The notes beneath the pieces were generated by a model. The model was not told the DNA's origin. It did no database searches and saw nothing but the letters and a program-made list of their open reading frames with translations. Position numbers and translations under genes: made by a program. Of a stretch of DNA of 64,000 nt, positions 32,200 through 53,293 are shown in pieces (position 1 is the first letter of the stretch; each line of letters begins with the position of its first letter). Origin of the DNA: Buxus sempervirens (taxonomy: Eukaryota; Streptophyta; Magnoliopsida; Buxales; Buxaceae); contig OX387190.1 of the NCBI GenBank assembly GCA_947561395.2, positions 37,436,392 through 37,500,391 of the forward strand, written 5' to 3'.

Positions 32200-35100
32200 T
32201 CAATGAAAACGCTGGTTGCGGAGGTCAACCCCAAGCCAATCTAAGTTGATGTTATCGTTGGGAACCATCACGATTAGGTTGGAGAGATGGATTTGGAGCA
32301 TTTCCCATAGACTGGCTGTTTCTTCATCACATATCACATCCTTAAGATGCTCAAGACCCATGGTTGACCTTGGCAATTCACTTACTCTCCAGCACTGTCT
32401 CATGTCAAGTTTCCGTAAACCACACAACTCACCCATTCCTTCAGGCAGTTTCTTCAAGTTCAAACAGTCAGATAAGTCAAGGAGCCTTAGCTTACGGAGT
32501 CTTCCAATTGAATTTGGCAGTTCTAAGAGTCCGGTACACGCGTGCAACCTTAGGACCTCTAAGTTTGTCATATTTCCAATTCCTTGAGGCAGTGCAGAGA
32601 GATTGTGACAATTGGTGATACTAAGCTTCTGCAGGTGGGTGATACCACAGATTTCCGGAGGCAATTCTGCTAGATCGTTGCAGTAGTCAATGTCAACCCC
32701 TTTGAGGTTCGGAAACATTGTGGGGTAACAGTTCCTGAATGCTTGGCCAACCTCACACATTACCAATGATATCTTATGTAAATTCTTCAAGGGGGCTGCA
32801 ATTTCCCCAAGGGAAGGAACCACAATCTTCTCTAACCTGATCCTCTTTAGATAGGAGAAAGAACCAAATGCTAGAAAGTCACTTAATTTGGCATGTTGAG
32901 AATCGTAATTTGAGATCATTAGAACCTTCAGTTTCCACATTGACTGCATGAATGAGGGTAATGTGTAATTCCTGGCGGAAAAATTCAAAATTAGAACCTC
33001 AACTTCAGGTAGTTGCATCTCACACCAGCTTGATGGTAACATTTCACCTGCAAATTACTCATGTAAGAAAGTTTAAAAGGAGGGGGGAGGGAAGAAGGAT
33101 CTCATATATTTCTGTGCGGTAAACCCAGTATAATTAAATGAAATTTACTTGCCTGAGTGGATCGAAACAAGCCTGGCATTTAATGGTTGGAACGCTTGCT
33201 CCCTCCAGATACAAGGAATGCCATCCTCTCTTTTGTCCATGATAAGTCTCTTATTCAAGTTTAAGTCTTGCTGCTGAAGACTCTGATGAATAGCCAAATC
33301 TCGCAGCAGATCATGCTGCACCACAAAGAGCTCATTGAAGTTTCCATCAATCTCCCCTGCATCTTTCCTGATGAATGATAAAAAGGTCAATTTCTAAGGA
33401 AATGTGTAAATGTAAGTGCACCGCGCGTGTGTGTGCGGGTTATAGGAGAACAATGGATATCAGCTTTTATGAATAATTGATAGAGAGCTCTTCCAATTCT
33501 TATTTTCTTTTATATAGTTTCGTTTGTCATTTGCTCTCACTATTAGTGCTATATTCATAACAATTTTGCCCACTGGAAATTAGAATAAAATCAAATTGCA
33601 AATAAAAGCAGACAGTATACCTTGTGCTCTCAACTAGATTAATAAGATTTCGACTTGATAGCTCAAGGAGGTTGACGTAGGCATCATCTTCATCTAGTCC
33701 ATAACATTCAACCCAAATATCAACAAGAGCAGAGGCAGGGATCCTTTCATTTGCAGGAAAGGAACCCAAGTCCAGAAAGCACTGTCGCACCGTGTCATCC
33801 AAGAATTGTAAACTGGTGGCAAGACGATCAAGCAGATCCCTGTCAGAATTGAAAATGGACCCAACTTTTGACAGTTGCCTCTCAGTGTGTTGCCACTTTC
33901 TTCTAGGCTGCTGATGCAGTGAGCGACCAATGACCTTAATTGCCAGTGGGAATCCTTTACAACCTTTTACTATCTGTGTTTCAATGCCATCAAGTACCAT
34001 CATTTAGTACAATTCTGCTTTAAACCTAAGCACTCTGGTCCAAATCAAGAGAGCAGTAAAGGAAAAATCAAAACACAATATATAGCAACATTTATGAATT
34101 TCAGCAGTCTGGAAATATACACCAAGAACAAGGTTATGATCTCTCTTTTTCCTATGACCCTAAAATGACACCTCCAAGAGAATAATTGTTGAAAAACAAA
34201 CAGCAAAAATAAACAGGAAATCATAGCACAGGATGTATGACATCCTAAATTTTAGCTCTTCATAGAATTGAGTTTTTTTATCCATAAAGATGACGAGATA
34301 TTATATGAATTTGTCATTAGAAGCCTTTGCCCGGTTTTATCATCTAATAGAAGCAGAAGAATTTTTTACTTCTTGCTAGAAAACCAATTGCCTAACTGAT
34401 TTTTATCTTCAAGACTTGATTTTTGGGGCCATTGGTGCAAAGTCATATGAATACATATGCATTCAGGCACAACAATGGAATATTGATGAGAAGAGAGCAA
34501 ATGATATCTGCATATTGTTAATAGTTATGTTTTAAATAATATGTTCATATGCAAGCACACACATTAATATGGAAGACAAATAAGGCACTCTTTATATGTT
34601 CATGAACATAGCAAAAATGCATGCATATAATGGTTAATAGACAAGGCACCTTGTTCACAAGATCGTCACGTGTTCTCTCATAGTTAGCCTCATTTGGGAA
34701 TGCTGAGTGGCGAAAAAGGGTCATAGCGTCAGTGTCGCTTAACATTTTCAAAGAATATGTAGCATCAAATGTTTGAAATACTGTTCTTGATGTAACCAAT
34801 ATCTTGTATCCAAATATTCTGGACATAAACTTCTCAAGGACAGACTCTGACCAAACATCATCCAATACCAACAATAATGGTTCAGGTTCTCTCTGCTTTA
34901 GCACGAATCCTAGAGCGTTAACTGCATCTTCATCATTCTGAAACTCAGGCAAATTAGAATTGTGGACCATATGTTGAAATAATCTCTGAAGGGTGACCTT
35001 CAAGTTGGGTGAGCTTGAAATGGTTAAAAAGAAGATGTTCTCCCTGAATATGCCTGTCCAAGCAAAGTATAAGGAACAATTCTATTAAGAAAGACCCTGT

Positions 35101-36031
35101 ATTGATCAATATTTTATTTTGTCAGCTGAAAGAGAGAATAAAAGTACATAAAACAACATTTAGTGACCAGTATTCTGCTCCCATTCAATCATCAATCACA
35201 TCATTTATCCGAAAAAATTGTGTTTTCTTGATCCATGCAAAAAAAAAAATGATATGAATCTTTACAGTTGCAATTCAATTTCGTTCATAGCAGTTAAAAT
35301 TAAAATGACCAAAAGAAAAAACATAAAAATAAAAATGAGGATCCGTAATGATTCAATTTGATTTGCTCTTTACCTCTAACTTGATCGTCTCGACAAAGCA
35401 TAGCGGCCAACGTTGTCTTCCCGCATCCTCCGGGAGCGCAAAGTCCGAGTACGGACACGTCGTCTCTAAAAAGCTGCAGCTTCAAATGTTTGAGAGGCAC
35501 ATCTAATGCAACAGTAAGAGTTGACTTTTGAGGAACTGCACACCAACCCTCGCACACACCGGGAATTGAACTCGCACCTCTTCGGTCTCCCATTCCGTCC
35601 AACTTCCGACAGGCGTCTTTAACATCAACCAAGATCTGTTTGTTGTCAAGCCACATCTCCGCCTGCAAATCCATCTGAAAGAACCTGAGCAGAGCTGCGT
35701 TCAACTTGATGATCTTCTTGGCATAACGGTAGTTCTTGTAAATATTCCATAAAGGGGTGTTGGAGCACTTGCGAACAAGTTCCTTCCCACTATGCAACTG
35801 AAACAACAAGGCATCGATATCGGATCTCCGACGTTCCGTTAACAATCCGTCCAATTGCTTTACCTCGTTGACGAGGGGAATTACAAATTCAAGCGTGGAC
35901 TTGAGTTGCTGCACGTAGGCTTTGCAACGGAAAGCCTTGTTATTCACATCTAAAATGACTCTCAACAACTCTCCCGCCACAGCCCCCAACACAATCTGTC
36001 CTGTAAATGCTAAGGCCATAAAGTTCTTCAA
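32200..36031 (-). CDS. NRG1: RPW8-type helper NLR, NRG1 class, copy A
   Basis: Five exons on the minus strand: 35374-36031, 34650-35053, 33621-33973, 33153-33367 and 32200-33047. They give 825 residues with no internal stop. Residues about 6-150 form the RPW8-like CC domain. NB-ARC follows, with P-loop GGCGKTT (201-207, K205), kinase-2 LLLVLDDVW (ends 287), RNBS-B KILVTSR and GLPL-type GFPLA (361-365). The MHD position reads QHD (489-491), normal for this class. The C-terminal LRR (555-800) includes ELPPEICGITHLQKLSITNC and LPEGMGELCGLRKL. NRG1 proteins act downstream of TIR-NLRs with EDS1/SAG101 as membrane-pore helpers in immunity. Intron 4 begins with GC (CTCAG|GCAAGTAAA); using the later GT would give a stop. 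An alternative start is Met5 (36019). It converges with the kinase gene, stop codons about 555 bp apart. Confidence 0.95.
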
Positions 36032-36255
36032 GCCTAATCGATCTTCTCTGGTAGATATAAGAAAGAAAGAAAAAAATGGAAATTAGGGCAAATTGACTGT
36101 TGTGGGAAGCAGAGATGTTGAATTACGTAGAAACCATTTTAGTGGAGAGTGGAGGACAAGAAGATATGCAATTCGAATAAAAAATGGAGGGAGACATCAA
36201 CCCGACGCGAATCTGACGCGCAACCTCCTGATCTCCGTTCCCCTACGTAACCGGG

Positions 36256-36424
36256 CGCAAAAGCATTTCCTCTCGAGCCTCTCGAGCCAAAATCCAGTGG
36301 TTGTATTGTATGAAACCACCAACTGAGATGGAATTTGGATGTGTGAACTGTGAAGCCCTTTCTAAGGCATCTATCCGGGTGTTTCACACCGACACCTATG
36401 AGTGGCACCAGGTGAAATGCTTCC
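36256..36424. mobile_element. Small MITE, copy 1 of a three-copy family
   Basis: It begins near AAAGCATTTCCTCTCGAG and ends near GGTGAAATGCTTCC, inverted repeats of each other. The interior GGAATTTGGATGTGTG matches copies near 41140 and 62860. It lies about 220 bp upstream of NRG1-A. Exact ends are uncertain. Confidence 0.6.
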
Positions 36425-36833
36425 ATACTTTAACTGCATAACCAATGACATCTAATCGTGCAAAAGCAACGCAAGTTCCCTTTTCAACTCCCCGCTTGAA
36501 AATCCGATTCTAATGTCAATGAGTCACATCTTAATCCGTTTACCGCCTGTTTTTGATTAAATATTCCCATTAAATTGAATTTTCTACCAATTAAATATCC
36601 ATAGAATCGGATTCGGATCTTGGTGGATCCGATCCAAATCCGATCTATTTACAGCCCCAAACTGAGGTCAAAGAGCAATTTAAGCCTTCCAACTTTCTGC
36701 AGCAGTGATAAACACAAAAGTCTTATATTTAAAAAAAAAAGAGTGATTTTTGAGCTGCAGCACATTTCTACTGCTGGGTACGTTTATACAATACATGTAC
36801 AAGACGCAGTGATGCTCTGGAAAATTTTCCTCA

Positions 36834-39800
36834 TCAATGAAAACGCTGGTTGCGGAGGTCAACCCCAAGCCAATCTAAGTTGATGTTATCGTTGGGAACC
36901 ATCACGATTAGGTTGGAGAGATGGATTTGGAGCGTTTCCCATAGACTGGCTGTTTCTTCATCACATATCACATCCTTAAGATACTCAAGACCCATGGTTG
37001 ACCTTGGCAATTCACTCACTCTCCAGCACTGTCTCATGTCAAGTTTCCGTAAACCACACAACTCACCCATTCCTTCAGGCAGTTTCTTCAAGTTCAAACA
37101 GTCAGATAAATCAAGGAGCCTTAGCTTACGGAGTCTTCCAATTGAATCTGGCAATTCTAAGAGTCTGGTACACACGTGCAACCTTAGGACCTCTAAGTTT
37201 GTCATATTTCCAATTCCTTGAGGCAGTGCAGAAAGACTGTGACAATTGGTGATACTAAGCTTCTGCAGGTGGGTGATACCACAGATTTCCGGAGGCAATT
37301 CTGCTAGATCGTTGCAGTAGTCAATGTCAACCTCTTTGAGGTTCGGAAACATTGTGGGGTAACAGTTCCTGAATGCTTGCCCAACCTCACACATTACCAA
37401 TGATATCTTATGTAAATTCTTCAAGGGGGCTGCAATTTCCCCAAGGGAAGGAACCACAATCTTCTCTAACCTGATCCTCTTTAGATAGGAGAAAGAACCA
37501 AATGCTAGAAAGTCACTTAATTTGGCATGTTGAGAATCGTAATTTGAGATCATTAGAACCTTCAGTTTCCACATTGACTGCATGAATGAGGGTAATGTGT
37601 AATTCCTGGCGGAAAAATTCAAAATTAGAACCTCAACTTCAGGTAGTTGCATCTCACACCAGCTTGATGGTAACATTTCACCTGCGAATTACTCATGAGT
37701 CATGATACATGGAAGAATGTTTAAAAAGAGGAGAGGATGTAGGGGGAAGAAGGATCTCATAAATTTCTGTGCGGTAATCCCAGTATAATTAAATGAAATT
37801 TACTGACCTGTGTGGATCGACACAAGCCTGGCATTCAATTGTTGGAACTTTTGCTCCCTCCAGATACTAGAAATGTCATCTTCTTTTTTGTCCATGATAA
37901 GTCTCTTATTCAAGTTTAAGTCTTGCTGCTGAAGGCTCTGATGAATAGCCAAATCTCTCAGCAGATCATGCTGTACCACAAAGAGCTCATTGAAGTTTCC
38001 ATCTATCTCCCCTGCATCTTTCCTGATGAATGATAAAATGTTCAATTGCTAAGGAAATGTGTAAATGAAAGTGAGTACGTGCGTGCGTGTGTGCGTGTGC
38101 GCATTATAGGAAAACAATGGATATTAGTTACCAGCACCAATTCACATGCCCTTATATACTATTGATAAATGAAGATGATGATCTGACCACAAAAGGAGTC
38201 AGCTCCTACGAATAGTTGAAAGAAAGTTCTTCCAATTCTTATTTTCTTTTCTATAATTTCTTTTGTCATTTGCGCTCAATATTAGTGCTATGTTCATAGA
38301 AAATTTTCCAACAGGAAATAAAATAAAATCATATTGCAAATAAAATTAGACAGTATACCTTGTGCTCTCAACTAGATTAATGAGATTTTGACTTGATAGC
38401 TCAAGGAGGTTGACGTAGGCATCATCTTCATCTAGTCCATAACATTCAACCCAAATATCAACAAGAGCAGAGGCAGGGATCCTTCCATTTGCAGGAAAGG
38501 AACCCAAGTCCAGAAAGCACTGTCGCACCGTGTCATCCAAGAATTGTAAACTGGTGGCAAGACAATCAAGCAGGTCCCTGTCAGAATTGAAAATGGAGCC
38601 AACTTTTGACAGTTGCCTCTCAGTGTGTTGCCACTTTCTTCTAGGCTGCTGATGCAGTGAGCGACCAATGACCTTAATTGCCAGTGGGAATCCCTTACAA
38701 CCTTCTACTATCTGTGTTTCAATGCCATCAAGTATCATCATTTAGTACAATTCTGCTTTAAACCTAAGCACTCTGGTCCAAATCAAGAGAGCAGTAAAGG
38801 AAAAATCAAAACACAATATGTAGCAACATTTATGTATTTCAGCAGTCTGGCAATATACACCAAGAACACGATTATGTCCTCTGTTTTTCCTATGATGCCT
38901 ACAAGAGAATAATTGTTGAAAAACGAACAGCAAATATAAACAGGAAATCATAGCACAGGATGTATGATATCCTCAATTTTAACTCATCATAGAATTGAGT
39001 TCTTTGATCCATAAAGATGACAATGAGTTGAGTTACCCATCTTTCATAACCAACAAGAGATATTATATGAATTTGTCATTAGAAGCCTTTGCCTGGTTTT
39101 ATCATCTAATAGAAGCAGAAGAATTTTTTACTTCTTGCTAGAAAACCAATTGCCTAATTGATTTTTATCTTCAAGACTTTACTTTTTGGGGTCGTCGGTG
39201 CAAAGTCATACGGCTACATATTCATTCAGGCACTACAATGGAATATTGATAAGAAGAGAGCAAATGATATCTGCATATTGTCAACAGTAATGTGTTTTAA
39301 ATAATATGTTCATATGCAAGCACGCAGACTAATATAAAAGACAAATAAGGCACTCTTTGTATGCCCATGAACATAGCAAAAATGCAGGCACATAATGGTT
39401 AATAGACAAGGCACCTTGTTCACAAGATCGTCATCTGTTCTCTCAAAGTTAGCCTCATTTGGGAATGCTGAGTGGCGAAAAAGGGTCATAGCGTCAGGGT
39501 CGCTTAACATTTTCAAAGAATATGTAGCATCAAATGTTTGAAATACTGTTCTTGATGTAACCAATATCTTGTATCCAACTATTCTGAACATAAGCTTGTC
39601 AAGGACAGACACTGACCAAACATCATCCAATACCAACAATAATGGTTCAGGTTCTCTCTGCTTTAGCAGGAATCCTAGAACCTTAACTGCATCTTCATCA
39701 TTCTGAAACTCAGGCAAATTAGACTTGTGGACCATCTGTTCAAATAATCTCTGAAGGGTGACCTTCAAGTTGGGTGAGCTTGAAATGGTTAAAAAGAAGA

Positions 39801-40813
39801 TGTTCTCCCTGAATATGCCTGTCCAAGCAAAGTATAAGGAACAATTCTATTAAGAAAGACCGTGTATTGATCAATATTTTATTTTGTCAGCTGAAAGAGA
39901 GAAAAAAGTACTTTTTTTTTTGGTAAAAGAGAAAAAAGTACATAAAACAACATTTAGTGACCAGTATTCTGTTCCCATTCAATCATCAATCACATGATTT
40001 ATCCGAAAAAATTGTGTTTTCTTGATCCATGAAAAAAAAATGATATGAATCTTTACAGTTGCAATTCAATTTCGTTCATAGCAATTAAAATTAAAATGAC
40101 CAAAAGAAAAAAAAAAATGAGGATCCGTAATGATTCAATTTGATTTGCTCTTTACCTCTAACTTGATCGTCTCGACAAAGCATAGCGGCCAACGTTGTCT
40201 TCCCGCATCCTCCGGGAGCGCAAAGTCCGAGTACGGACACGTCGTCTCTAAAAAGCTGCAGCTTCAAATGTTTGAGAGGCACATCTAATGCAACAGTAAG
40301 AGTTGGCATTTGAGGAACTGCACACCAACCCTCGCACACACCGGGAATTGAACTCGCACCTCTTCGGTCTCCCATTCCGTCCAACTTCCGACAGGCGTCT
40401 TTAACATCAACCAAGATCTGTTTGGTGTCAAGCCACATCTCCGCCTGCAAATCCATCTGAAAGAACCTGAGCAGAGCTGCGTTCAATTTGATGATCTTCT
40501 TGGCATAACGGTAGTTCTTGTAAATATTCCATAAAGGGGTGTTGGAGCACTTGCGAACAAGTTCCTTCCCACTATGCAACTGAAACAACAAGGCATCGAT
40601 ATCGGATCTCCGACGTTCCGTTAACAATCCGTCCAATTGCTTTACCTCGTTGACGAGGGGAATTACGCATTCAAGCGTGGACTTGAGTTGCTGCACGTAG
40701 AATTTGCAACGGAAAGCTTTGTTATTCACATCTAAAATGACTCTCAACAACTCTCCTGCCACAGCCCCCAACACAATTTCTCCTGTAAATGCTAAGGCCA
40801 TAAAGTTCTTCAA
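36834..40813 (-). CDS. NRG1: RPW8-type helper NLR, NRG1 class, copy B
   Basis: Five exons on the minus strand: 40156-40813, 39415-39818, 38359-38711, 37808-38022 and 36834-37681. The exon lengths are identical to copy A and again give an uninterrupted 825 residues. The P-loop GGCGKTT, LLLVLDDVW, KILVTSR, GFPLA and QHD motifs are all kept, so it looks functional. By eye about 38 residues differ from copy A: 6 in exon 1, 14 in exon 2, 4 in exon 3, 7 in exon 4 and 7 in exon 5. Intron 4 here begins with a normal GT (CACAG|GTCAGTAAA), unlike copy A. It is head to tail with A, so the pair arose by tandem duplication. Role as for copy A; whether the two have split tasks cannot be read from sequence. 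Confidence 0.95.
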
Positions 40814-41225: not shown

Positions 41226-41740
41226 ACATCTATTACTAATATAAAGAGAACTTGAAAGATTCGAACTTGATTTTATTTTTCTATGTCCGAATCGCCTTTT
41301 GGGGAGCATTTTTCTCAAGTTAGTTACGGAGAGCATTTTTCTGGATGGCCTACGTTCATCTCCGCGTAGTGCGTGTGCAGCCCCTAATAAACAGAAAAAA
41401 GGAACCAATGACATCTAATCGAGCAAAAGCAACGCAAGGACCTTTTCAATTTCCCGGCTTGACAAATGAAGCTGATGTCAAAGAGCAATTTAAGCAAGCA
41501 AACTCATGTCATTTGTCAGGGTTGCAACTTGCAAATGAGGAAAGCAAATCCTCTGCAACCCACGACATTACTGCAAGTCTGCAACCTTTACTACGACGAA
41601 GTCCGTTCGATTCGTGGCAGGTCGGGTCCGTTTCAGACCCGGCTAAACTTTCCCCCATTTCACTATTCACCATGGTTTAATAGCTACCTATTCATCTTTC
41701 CGGCGGCTATATAAACTTTTCTGACAGACTTCCCTCGTTG

Positions 41741-41950
41741 AAGCAACGCAAAAACAAACTAAACCAGAAAAATCCAGAGACCTTTCTTGTGATTACGGTG
41801 GAGCAACACAGAAACAAACTAAATCTATAAGAAAATTCCAAAGACCTTTCTTGTGAATAACAAACTAAATCTGTGGAGCAACATAGAAAAATCCAGAGAC
41901 CTTTCTTCTGAATAACAAGTTTTTGGCGATCAAGCCATCACCAAGCGTTC
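41741..41950. repeat. Carrier repeat, copy 1 (about three tandem units)
   Basis: Diverged units share GCAACACAGAAACAAACTAA and ATCCAGAGACCTTTCTTGTG. The array ends in AATAACAAGTTTTTGGCGAT, then CAAGCCATCACCAAGCGTTC (41931-41950). The same units and the same terminal 20-mer occur at 52480-52620. The sequence directly after the 20-mer differs between the two copies. A TATATAAAC box lies just upstream at about 41708. Confidence 0.85.
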
Positions 41951-42283
41951 AATCCAAAAGCCCACGGAAGACCAGCCTTTTCTCTTGTTGAATCTATTTC
42001 CTCTTTTGGCTGCGATTTCTCTCCTTCGGCTCTAAGAGAAGGTAGTATGGAACTCAGGTAGGACCTTACGCGACAGGACTGAAGGAGGAAGAAAAGAAAT
42101 CGCTTGAGTTTGGCATGATTGGGTTCGGAGGGATCAAGATAGGAGAGGATTTGATAGCCGTTGGTGAGGTTCGTAGAAGGCATATAAGTGCCGGTGAAGA
42201 GATATTTCTTCTCTACTTTGAAACATCAAAGAGGACGAGGAAGCTCTTGCTGTCTATTACCTCGTGGCATGTTGTTTGGAAGT
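41951..42283 (-). pseudogene. Allene oxide synthase (CYP74A) gene fragment
   Basis: The minus strand reads DSKSFLVLFDVSK, then after a one-base loss EKKYLFTGTYMPSTNLTNGY, ILSYLDPSEPNHAKLKRFLF and FLLQS. A two-base loss shifts the frame, after which KVLPEFHTTFS follows, then EIAAK. This is the central region of allene oxide synthase, the jasmonate-pathway P450 that dehydrates 13-hydroperoxy fatty acids. Only about 110 of roughly 500 residues are present, with several frameshifts and no heme-binding Cys region, so it cannot be functional. It begins exactly at the end of the carrier repeat and is cut on the other side by a hAT-like element. Confidence 0.9.
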
Positions 42284-43011
42284 AGGGGTGACAATCGGTC
42301 GAATATGGATCAAATATATGTATATTTGTATTTGAATCTGAATTTTAGTAGATCTTAGATTTTAGATTCGTATTCGAACCACGGATCTAAATCCTATATT
42401 CGAATTCTCTAATTTCGATTTCGGATCGAATTCGAATATATATCCCATTCATTACCAGCTACTCAGAGAGGGATTTAAATGAGAAATGGGTTTGAACTTC
42501 AAATTTAAAGCACCACGCAACAGTGGATATTGAGCGACTAACAAAAAAAATCGTACCCCGGAACTTAGAACGACCGGCCTATTCTGGACAATGGAATTTC
42601 AAAGCAAAAAAGGTTTCAAAATAAGAGGTTTTGGAATTTGTTCTTTAAGTGGGTTTATAGGTATCAATCGCCGGAGGGTGGCAGCCACAAAGAGGAGAGA
42701 AAGTTTAAATTTAGAGCAAATCATTCTCTAAAGGTTTTTGGTTTTAGTTATGATGGTTCAACCGTAGTTTATAAATGGTCTACAGTCTAACCAATGTTTG
42801 CTCTGGGTTTATGTACAGGATATATATGATTTCGGTTGAATCCTATTCAGATCGGATATATGTATATTCGCATTTGAATCTAAAATTTTTTGGATCTTAG
42901 ATTTCAGATCCGTATTCGAACCACGAATCTTAGATTTCGGATCGGATTCGCCAATTTCGAATCGGATTCGGATCAAATTTGGATACATATCCAACCCATT
43001 GCCAGCCCTAC
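42284..43011. mobile_element. hAT-like inverted-repeat element
   Basis: The left end TAGGGGTGACAATCGG pairs with the right end, read inverted as TAGGGCTGGCAATGGG. About 170 bp next to each end (around 42290-42460 and 42830-43005) are GATTCGxATTCG-rich and complementary. No convincing 8-bp flank duplication was found, so the family is inferred from end sequence only. The interior has no coding frame. Confidence 0.6.
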
Positions 43012-44139
43012 CTGAAACACCGTTGACTGATATTTTTGCATTTGAGACTTGAAGAACTCCTCTCTACCTTGGTTGTAGAAGTAGACAAGTGGTTAAAAAT
43101 TTAAAAATAAAAATAGAAAAATCAAATGCCATTAAGGCTTTTAACGCTATGTATGGATGAGCTGCTCTTCTCCTTCACCTTCTTTAGGATTGGGGTGGTC
43201 TCAAGCAACTGGTCTTCTATGAACCTCTAATGAACCCTTTCTCCTCCCCACTTCCGCCGGAGCTCTTCGTTGTAGTCGCCGCAAAGCTCTTCAGGTCACC
43301 GGAGCAAAGGCTAGGGTGATAGACGCCACTGATTTCGGTGAGTCTCCCACAGAGTCGTATAACTAAGGTTAACCGAGTTTTGATTCCAGCAAGTCATGGG
43401 TTGGATGAGGTTAACATAACTATGGTTAACACCTAAACGCTTGCCACGCGTCGAATGGACTGCTTAATAGTAAAGGTCGCAATAAAGTGGTGCATCGTAG
43501 AGGATTTACTTTCGCAAAGGAGTCAAAGACAAGTTAAGCTTTGCGTGACTCACGTAAATTTCAAAGAATGTATGCACTCGACCAGGGTTGCTTATCAGTC
43601 CGGGCCTTCAAGGCCCAGAACATTTTGAGCGTGCTCGTATCCGACATAGCCCATCACCTATTTACAGATTCAATAAAGTTAGGAACCTACCCCTTTTTTT
43701 AGTGGATTGGATTAAAATGGAGTTAGGAACTTAGGACAAGCTTATAGATACAATAGGTTTTCATGATTGGTCCGGCGTACGTAACTTGCTGCATAATTAA
43801 TGGGTTGAGTTGGGCCTTAAGGTCACGCATGCAGTTCCTTATCCGGTGGGTCAAAGTCAACCATATTTAGCCTAACACTAACCCATTGTTCTATCCACTT
43901 TTGATTAAATTAATGGAAAGAAAAGGGGGCTATCATAAGGTACAAGCTTATAAACAGTCCCTTTATCCAGAAAGAGAAACCTCAGGACATAAAAATCTAT
44001 CTTCAATGGATGTGGCTGACCAAAGTATGTATCCTAGGTCATGCCAACTGAGAACATGCACCATATATTTGAAGTGTACATCATCACTACCAGTCGGATA
44101 ACTGGTGATTAGGTAATACAATAGCAATGACTTGTTCTG
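43012..44139. other. Spacer and 3' region of the reticulon gene
   Basis: No gene was seen. A GC-richer patch at 43150-43330 (CTTCCGCCGGAGCTCTTCG) might be another gene fragment, but I cannot name it. Confidence 0.4.
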
Positions 44140-51691: not shown

Positions 51692-52191
51692 GCACTGTTT
51701 CGTTCATGTTTTCAACTAGGGATATATTAGTTTTGCAGTTTGCACCATTTATTCTCTTGCTCCGAGGCAGGACATGAGAAGAGTATACTGTGCTTGTAGT
51801 CGCACGTGCAATACTGCACGTATACGAACCGCAAACGGTTTATTGGGTGCTGTGTGGGCCGGGTAAGGCGTTGGTTGTTGCTAATGATGGTAAAATTAAA
51901 CTTTGGAAGAGGCATTATGAGGAAAATAAATGTCCAACCAAAATGGTTTGGCTTGTTTTATAATAGTAATAGATATATAAATAAGGGATTTAGAGTGTGT
52001 TATATAGAATATATTGTTAAGGGCTTTGTATAAACCCCCTCACATGTTTTCTTATCTTTATGAAGATCCGGTCTAGTCTCCTCACTATACTGTAGAAATG
52101 AAATTAATGCTTTCAATGTCATTTTCTCTTCCAATTAATCCCGTTATACGAAGAAGATAGATAATTGCTGTTGGTGTCAAAATTTCCTCGC
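51692..52191. other. NPF 3' UTR and spacer
   Basis: This holds the 3' end of the transporter transcript. A near-palindrome, GTGCAATACTGCAC (51806-51819), is the inverse complement of the motif at 1707-1720 and resembles one at 9177-9190. Confidence 0.5.
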
Positions 52192-53144
52192 TTTCTCACT
52201 CTTTCTCAGTCATGGTGCTAGCGAACATTTCTGCGAATTCTGAAGAAGATTCAAATCATCGTACTTCGCTGGAGAAACCTTGTTCATTGCTTGCAGAAAG
52301 GATCTAGGCCTCGCCTGGACCTCCGGATGTTTTGCTAGAGACAGAGGAATCAGCAATTTTCTTCGCTAAAGAACCATTGTGCTTGGACGAACAGGAAAAA
52401 CAATTAGATCCTCCCTTAGAATCGACAATGGCCAAGGAATGTTTCAATTTGCTGATGAAAGAAGAGTTGCAATAGTCCTAATTAGAAAAATCTAGAGACC
52501 TTTCTTGTGATAATAGAAGCAACACAGAAACAAACTAAACCTGTAAGAATGCAAAACTCTGGAAACATTTCAAAAGGTCTGAATAACAAGTTTTTGCGCT
52601 CAAGCCATCACCAAGCGTTCGTGTGAGTCTTGATAACTATGATCCCTTGTCTTCTCCTGCAAATAGAATGAACGGAGCTCGTATGAACTTGGAGAATAAT
52701 TCAATGACTAATGAAGCATGGGAAGATTTGAAAAAGTCAACCGTGAATTACAAAGGAAAGCTAGTTTTGTTTTTGGAGTTTTGCATTCTTACAGATTTAG
52801 TTTTTTTCTATATTGCTCCACCATTATCACAAGAAAGGTCTATGGATTTTTCTGATTTGGAGTGTTGCAACTCTTCTTCATCAGCGAATTGGAACATTCC
52901 TCAGCTGTCGTTGATTCTGAGGGAGGATTTGACAATTTTTCCTACCCATCCAAGCACAATGGTTCTTCAGCGAAGAAACCTGTGGATTCCTCCATCTCCA
53001 GCAAAACATCCGAAGGTTCAAACAAGGCCTGAATCCTTTCTCCAGGCAATGAACAAGGTTTCTTCAGCGAAGTATAGCGATTTGAATCTTCTTTGGAATT
53101 CGCAGAAATGCTCGCCGACACCATGACTGAGAAAGAGTGAGAAA
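52192..53144. mobile_element. Long inverted-repeat element with captured fragment
   Basis: The left arm (52192-52563) and right arm (52772-53144) are inverted copies roughly 370 bp long. TTTCTCACTCTTTCTCAGTC pairs with GACTGAGAAAGAGTGAGAAA at the outer ends, and CTGTAAGAATGCAAAACTC pairs with GAGTTTTGCATTCTTACAG at the inner ends. By eye most positions pair. The spacer has the carrier tail (about 52580-52620) followed by a gene-like fragment. Each arm also holds a diverged frame (left arm NISANSEEDSN, right arm on minus SISANSKEDSN) not matched to any family. A transcript across it would fold into a long hairpin. No terminal duplication was identified, so the class is unknown; Pack-type or foldback origin is inferred. 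Confidence 0.8.
52621..52771 (+). pseudogene. Captured host-gene fragment, possibly alkaline/neutral invertase
   Basis: Directly after the carrier 20-mer the plus strand reads SLDNYDPLSSPANRMNGARM, NLENNSMTNEAWEDLKKSTV and NYKGKLV. The pattern N-LE-NS-NEAWE-L--S-V-Y-G--V resembles the start of the catalytic region of plant alkaline/neutral invertases (family pattern DEAWELLRxSxVYYxGxPVGT). Only about 48 codons are present and the GT(I)AA continuation is lost where the right arm begins. The assignment rests on a short pattern match, so I hold it loosely. Confidence 0.45.
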
Positions 53145-53293
53145 TGGAGAGAGATACTTTCAGGAGAGAGCGATATTTCAACAAGGGAAGTCTGCAGGAA
53201 AAGTTCATATGGCCGCTGTGCGCGCGTCGATCCACAGGCCGCACGTCGCTGACTAGGATCTCCTTGGGAGGAATGGAGAATGAGAGTCGCCAC

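Follow-up and report, generated by a model that had tools for sequence, protein, structure and literature searches.

A degenerate Pack-MULE with captured invertase and allene oxide synthase fragments, and an apparent foldback relic of the same invertase exon, in Buxus sempervirens

Pack-MULEs are non-autonomous Mutator-like elements that carry genes or gene fragments (PMC3310237, PMC8903248), and, as far as these descriptions extend, Pack-TYPE elements that combine sequence from two or more loci are known among rice Pack-MULEs, Arabidopsis Pack-CACTA elements and in maize (PMC8903248). The same account gives the target site duplications (TSDs) as 8 nt for hAT and 5 nt for CACTA elements. Break repair with template switching has been proposed for Pack-TIR elements in animals, in the sections of that work drawn on here (PMC8277862). 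Gene capture by a Mutator-type element is a known kind of event and the literature supports no claim of novelty for the present case, which is ordinary but well documented, with likely parents found for two captured pieces. Our literature search found no report that joins Mutator-like elements with neutral invertase, and a single paper in which Pack-MULEs and allene oxide synthase are each mentioned once.

The window is the whole stretch of DNA analysed, 64,000 nucleotides of Buxus sempervirens contig OX387190.1 (positions 37,436,392 to 37,500,391); coordinates without a contig name refer to it, and other contigs of the assembly are given as C1, C3 and so on. With high confidence we identify positions 41540–43513 as a degenerate non-autonomous Mutator-like element, a Pack-MULE, which carries pieces of an invertase gene, of an allene oxide synthase (AOS) gene and a third piece that we call segment X. 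The features of the element are as follows.

41531–41539, left TSD, GCAAATGAG, an 8/9 match to GCAAAGGAG at 43514–43522
41540–41619, plus strand, left terminal inverted repeat (TIR) of the Mutator-like element, pairing with 43442–43513
41620–41740, plus strand, the element's own left interior, common to the C8, C9, C10, C14, C19:3.97 Mb and C12:10.3 Mb elements
41741–41950, plus strand, captured invertase exon-1 piece with an internal tandem duplication, ending at a 20-mer discussed below
41951–42036, plus strand, segment X, the true junction partner of the 20-mer, common to the C8, C9, C10 and C14 elements
42037–42282, minus strand, AOS fragment part 1 (CYP74A), frameshifted, 89% identical to the AOS gene at C12:37.796 Mb
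42283–43005, nested insertion with ends TAGGGGTGACAAT../..ATTGCCAGCCCTA, beyond which AOS sequence resumes
43006–43084, minus strand, AOS fragment part 2, 91% identical to the AOS gene over 69 bp (43016–43084)
43085–43441, plus strand, the element's right interior, common to the C8, C9 and C10 relatives
43442–43513, minus strand, right TIR, pairing with 41540–41619
43514–43522, right TSD, GCAAAGGAG, an 8/9 match to GCAAATGAG

The 1974 bp of the element are largely made up of TIRs, captured pieces and the 723-bp nested insertion, and the ORF list of the window holds no frame of at least 130 codons inside it. Within the left interior we take TATATAAA at 41708–41715 to resemble a TATA box. A preliminary description of this DNA had reported the interval 41741–42283; the TIRs of the element fall outside it. 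The idea of a Pack-type element, non-autonomous and able to capture genes, is borne out for this copy, whose outer ends recur in its relatives. Like Pack-MULEs as described in the accounts cited, the family has TIRs, a 9-bp TSD, gene fragments between the TIRs and several copies; the pieces in the window element come from more than one locus, and its C8 and C9 relatives are about 1.2 kb long. Unlike them, the window element has rather diverged TIRs of about 80 bp, an autonomous partner was not found and one of its pieces has an unplaced source; none of these is a difference in kind. With Pack-CACTA and Pack-hAT elements, as far as the same accounts describe them, it shares being a non-autonomous TIR element with captured coding DNA, but its duplication is 9 bp, rather than the 8 nt of hAT or the 5 nt of CACTA elements.

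A 17-mer from the TIR end occurs at 119 genomic sites with at most 1 mismatch, compared with 1 site for a reversed-pattern control, and can be used by annotators of the Buxus sempervirens genome. The window element can be aligned with three relatives, at C8:1.69, C9:43.68 and C10:39.90 Mb, over 424–433 bp on the left and 433–447 bp on the right, the right part, including the right TIR, being 78–82% identical. To score TSDs we took the best match between 9-base flanks with 25 shifts allowed. The flanks agree at 8/9 or better in 11 of 22 TIR pairs, and at 9/9 in 7, whereas mismatched pairings of left and right flanks reach 8/9 in none of 462 cases (the best, 7, being reached 14 times). Perfect 9-bp duplications are found at C9 (CTGAAATAG) and C14:6.64 Mb (CTTATCATG); the other 11 TIR pairs lack a good duplication, including those at C6 (7/9) and C19:3.975 Mb (6/9). 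Where a locus offers several TIR pairings one was chosen, and this is also the pair with the better duplication in L047, L069, L072, L077, L088 and the window; in L046 the chosen pair is without the better duplication. Two further TIR pairs were left out, one of 199 bp in L065 (10/10 match) and one of 325 bp in the C10 locus (no duplication). Because the TIRs are common to copies at different places and are accompanied by a 9-bp TSD, within the 9–11 bp of Mutator-like elements, we place the element among these; as in Pack-MULEs, host gene fragments lie between the TIRs and related genes are present elsewhere in the genome.

No MULE transposase was found between TIRs of this family among the 150 scored of 1051 PF10551 candidates, and comparison by eye of 100 of the 119 TIR sites with the 150 scored transposase matches found no autonomous partner. 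In a TIR pair of 6.4 kb on C9, the central 2 kb are free of frames longer than 119 codons. A locus at C1:58.84 Mb was considered as a partner and rejected, the transposase match there, the one scored match within 6 kb of a listed TIR site, not being inside an element. An 840-codon MULE-transposase frame at this locus (L094:3448–5967), which we take to be FAR1-like, lies at a distance of about 3 kb from an inverted pair of 224 bp that has the family TIR end.

The sequence previously regarded as a carrier of no known family is a captured invertase exon 1 within the Mutator-like element. Its best match, tandem units and 20-mer included, is exon 1 of a gene for an alkaline/neutral invertase, located at C19:1.768 Mb, where the stretch with the 20-mer forms one open frame from a possible methionine start through KPSPSV. 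The 20-mer, which had been viewed as part of a transposon, lies in the coding sequence of this gene and reads KPSPSV in frame both here and in the second copy of the window, at 52 kb. The C19 exon matches the alkaline/neutral invertase family of Pfam with 28.6 bits (cut-off 23.6), and PF12899 positions 1–36, 33–177, 178–363 and 364–435 follow in order at C19:1768178–1772902, the last three at C19:1770300–1772902, all within 5 kb. One in-frame stop is reported in the 33–177 stretch and may be read-through at an exon edge. Since the C19 locus holds the 20-mer in an open frame together with the rest of the profile, the supposed carrier is exon-1 sequence, and we take the C19 copy to be the invertase gene, the original state. 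Against this gene 41741–41950 aligns in four blocks of 28–72 bp with 89–96% identity.

Invertase exon 1 is present in 12 of the 23 element sequences compared (the 22 TIR pairs and the C10 element, a C21 copy without recognised TIRs being left out of the count), a proportion that is not a genome rate as the loci were chosen with invertase, AOS and TIR probes. In positions of the gene stretch, five of these pieces cover about 492–636, one covers 158–408 and 599–771, one covers 163–266 and five cover about 245–311. The invertase-like copy at C21:3.900 Mb was rejected as parent gene, being stop-ridden, and the C19 gene is the better candidate. The C21 copy (L043, C21:3.8986–3.9018 Mb), an old copy of exon 1 with 67–71% identity over about 470 bp, has its end close to that of the captured pieces; no inverted TIR pair was recognised at it.

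The second copy, at 52.2–53.2 kb and some 10 kb away from the element, has the organization of a foldback relic in which exon 1 would have been duplicated head to head.

52182–52756, plus strand, 5'UTR plus exon 1 of invertase, following the C19 gene without a break across the 20-mer, 87% identical to it over 581 bp
52768–53178, minus strand, inverted exon-1 arm, 82–83% identical to the left arm and 86% to the C19 gene
53179–53216, minus strand, piece of the Mutator-like left interior, attached on the upstream side of the inverted exon

The foldback arms (52182–52567 and 52768–53155) are about 385 bp each and enclose a 200-bp loop. The short piece at 53179–53216 is 85–89% identical over 38–40 bp to 41703–41742 and to the C8, C9 and C10 relatives. 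Family TIRs were not found at the ends of 52182–53216, and the 22-base TIR end, with up to 7 mismatches, occurs in the window at 41540, 42137 and 43492 only, so that the link of this copy to the family is drawn from those 38–40 bp and from a shared boundary described below. The near-palindrome resembles foldback elements and gene-derived inverted repeats; compared with these, its arms are host exon sequence and no transposon ends were found outside them. A protein product is unlikely from either copy, given the frameshift in the AOS piece and the stops in each of the exon arms at 52 kb.

We propose that the 5'UTR and exon 1 of an alkaline/neutral invertase gene entered an ancestor of the TIR family, probably in a single capture, and that this capture may have proceeded by break repair with template switching followed by internal deletion and joining. 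Internal deletion, a local tandem duplication and the joining of invertase to segment X would then have produced the lineage of the C8, C9, C10, C14 and window elements, and with this join the breakpoint noted after the 20-mer would be the end of that lineage's invertase piece. The middle of the window copy would have given way to AOS coding sequence of about 350 bp, perhaps donated by a second member of the TIR family with AOS already inside it, and a further element would later have inserted into the AOS piece. The 52-kb copy would derive from an invertase-bearing stage with colinear exon 1, followed by the head-to-head duplication.

A different history, in which exon 1 was captured twice, once in the lineage of the 41.7-kb element and once in that of the 52-kb copy, accords with the unequal extents of the invertase pieces and with the loss of the comparable 5' boundary from the 41.7-kb lineage. 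We regard it as unlikely, since the boundary between the element's left interior and the exon 5'UTR in the right arm at 53 kb agrees to within a few bases with that in the C19:3.97 and C12:10.3 Mb elements, and these three copies have a common 5'UTR indel pattern unlike the gene (both by eye). A single invertase capture is probable because of this common boundary.

It is also conceivable that the 52.2–53.2-kb foldback is a regulatory hairpin locus producing small RNAs against the invertase gene, to which its arms are 86–87% identical. The predicted RNA fold is very strong (−553.8 kcal/mol, z = −30; 20 shuffles gave a mean of −249.85 with sd 10.08), but such folding is expected of any long inverted repeat, and the arms are just 82–83% alike, as they would be under neutral decay, so that we consider a regulatory role improbable and favour the relic described above.

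Segment X is the 86 bp between the 20-mer and the AOS piece. In four other elements 83–95 of the 96–100 aligned bases after the 20-mer are identical to the C9 element. The sole relative found outside the element family, at C9:6.2806 Mb (L093:1256–1348), is 86% identical over 93 bp, and the 3 kb of sequence read there contain no TIR end, even with as many as 4 mismatches allowed. No parent gene of segment X was identified. A short frame, DHNYSFESSLVESVSSFDCDYSPSALKK, spans the C9:6.2806 Mb relative, and the 35-residue reading of segment X's best relative matched itself and two family members.

The minus-strand similarity of the first copy to AOS (CYP74A) is real, as had been reported, but it does not directly follow the 20-mer as then believed: segment X, common to four other elements, intervenes at 41951–42036 and AOS sequence starts from about 42037. 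The AOS gene at C12:37.796 Mb, on the same contig as the window element and 318 kb from it, has a continuous frame across 200 codons, the length read, and comparison with solved structures assigns it to CYP74A (2rch, E = 7e-95). Positions 42037–42256 are 89–91% identical to C12:37.796 and C3:53.534 Mb, and 93% identical over 148 bp to C6:39.318 Mb; as 43016–43084 matches the AOS gene further on, the captured piece spans about 350 bp of gene. At C6:39.318 Mb AOS sequence lies between both family TIRs (803 bp, flank match 7/9), and at C3:53.53 Mb it lies beside a right TIR only. The window, C6 and C3 pieces show the same difference from the C12 gene at 12 of 323 ungapped columns and, by eye, have a 1-bp deletion in common. 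These shared differences point to one origin, or to descent of all three from an AOS parent distinct from the C12 gene, which may not be the direct parent.

The AOS end falls at the same position within a few bases in the window (42032–42037) and at C3:53.53 Mb (L086:1466–2194), and the element sequence beside it differs, being C8-like in the window and of another kind at C3, where the 31 bp beside the AOS end are 90–94% identical to the C4:24.1 and C9:38.3 Mb elements. The same AOS end beside differing element sequence would mean that captured pieces are exchanged between sub-families. We put forward only tentatively, and with more doubt than belief, that pieces pass between element sub-families in this way by exchange at or near an old capture boundary.

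Segmental duplication or retroposition of host genes followed by fragmentation, with no role for a transposon, might be entertained since the AOS gene is on the same contig and since the AOS stretch seen keeps to a single frame, so that splicing offers no test of RNA against DNA. However, in several elements the pieces are enclosed by TIRs and 9-bp duplications, and the same flanking element sequence is found on several contigs. Such an origin is contradicted for the 41.7-kb element and partly open for the 52-kb foldback; as an account of the whole it is highly improbable, and we retain capture by a Mutator-like element.

As stated in the preliminary description, the 20-mer is present in both window copies, at 41931–41950 and 52601–52620, and the window has no other site even when 3 mismatches are allowed (100 shuffles gave a mean of 0). 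Across the genome, of 676.5 Mb in 247 contigs, the same limit yields 26 sites, compared with 7 for a reversed-pattern control; 6 are exact, 2 have one mismatch, 1 has two and 17 have three. All 8 sites with 0–1 mismatch have flanks related among them. We compared the 100 bases 3' of the 20-mer in these 8 copies and in the two-mismatch copy. The latter, at C3:54.139 Mb (L017), was discarded, its downstream sequence being unrelated. Relative to C19:1.768 Mb, the 52.6-kb copy is identical at 89/100 and C19:3.975 Mb at 93/100 positions; relative to the C9 copy, the 41.7-kb copy is identical at 83/96, C8 at 95/100, C10 at 91/96 and C14 at 90/99. No comparison across the two sets scores as high as the best of 200 shuffled sequences. 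Thus three of the eight sites, the C19:1.768 Mb gene, the 52.6-kb copy and the C19:3.975 Mb element, run on as invertase, and the other five (41.7-kb, C8, C9, C10 and C14 elements) have one identical break. As only gene-like or C9-like sequence follows the 20-mer at these eight sites, there are two downstream states, not many, and the sequences are most simply read as a single junction, at 41950/41951, that formed once.

These comparisons bear on several of the earlier claims. That different sequences follow the 20-mer is true of the two window copies, and the invertase-like frame after 52621 is real, but there is no junction at 52621, because invertase similarity is unbroken from about 52182 through the 20-mer to about 52756. 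Likewise the GAAACAAACTAAA/GAGACCTTTCTTGTG units said to be shared are tandem in the first copy, but in the second one is forward and one inverted. The proposed genome-wide tabulation shows just two downstream states; relatives with the same outer ends do lie on other contigs. A carrier that repeatedly fuses different host genes at a fixed internal point, as suggested by the two sequences that follow the 20-mer in the window, is scarcely tenable, given that the 20-mer is itself gene sequence and that the 8 sites, with either unbroken invertase or the break common to five elements, include no further unrelated joins exactly after it. Two decayed copies of one captured exon can mimic a carrier with a fixed fusion point.

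The nested insertion at 42283–43005 (723 bp) has inverted ends, TAGGG..CCCTA, at which direct repeats are likewise present, 85% alike over 81 bp and 76% alike over 157 bp. The ends given in the feature list look hAT-like in our judgement; by eye the flanks TTTGGAAG and CCTGAAAC agree at 4/8 positions, where a hAT duplication would be 8 bp. On the minus strand beside the Mutator-like element, the window contains similar leucine-rich-repeat frames at 32203–33042 and 36837–37676, and a minus-strand frame at 40094–40813 has an RPW8 match and a weak NB-ARC match below cut-off. From these matches, 32203–40813 looks like a tandem cluster of disease-resistance genes adjoining the element.
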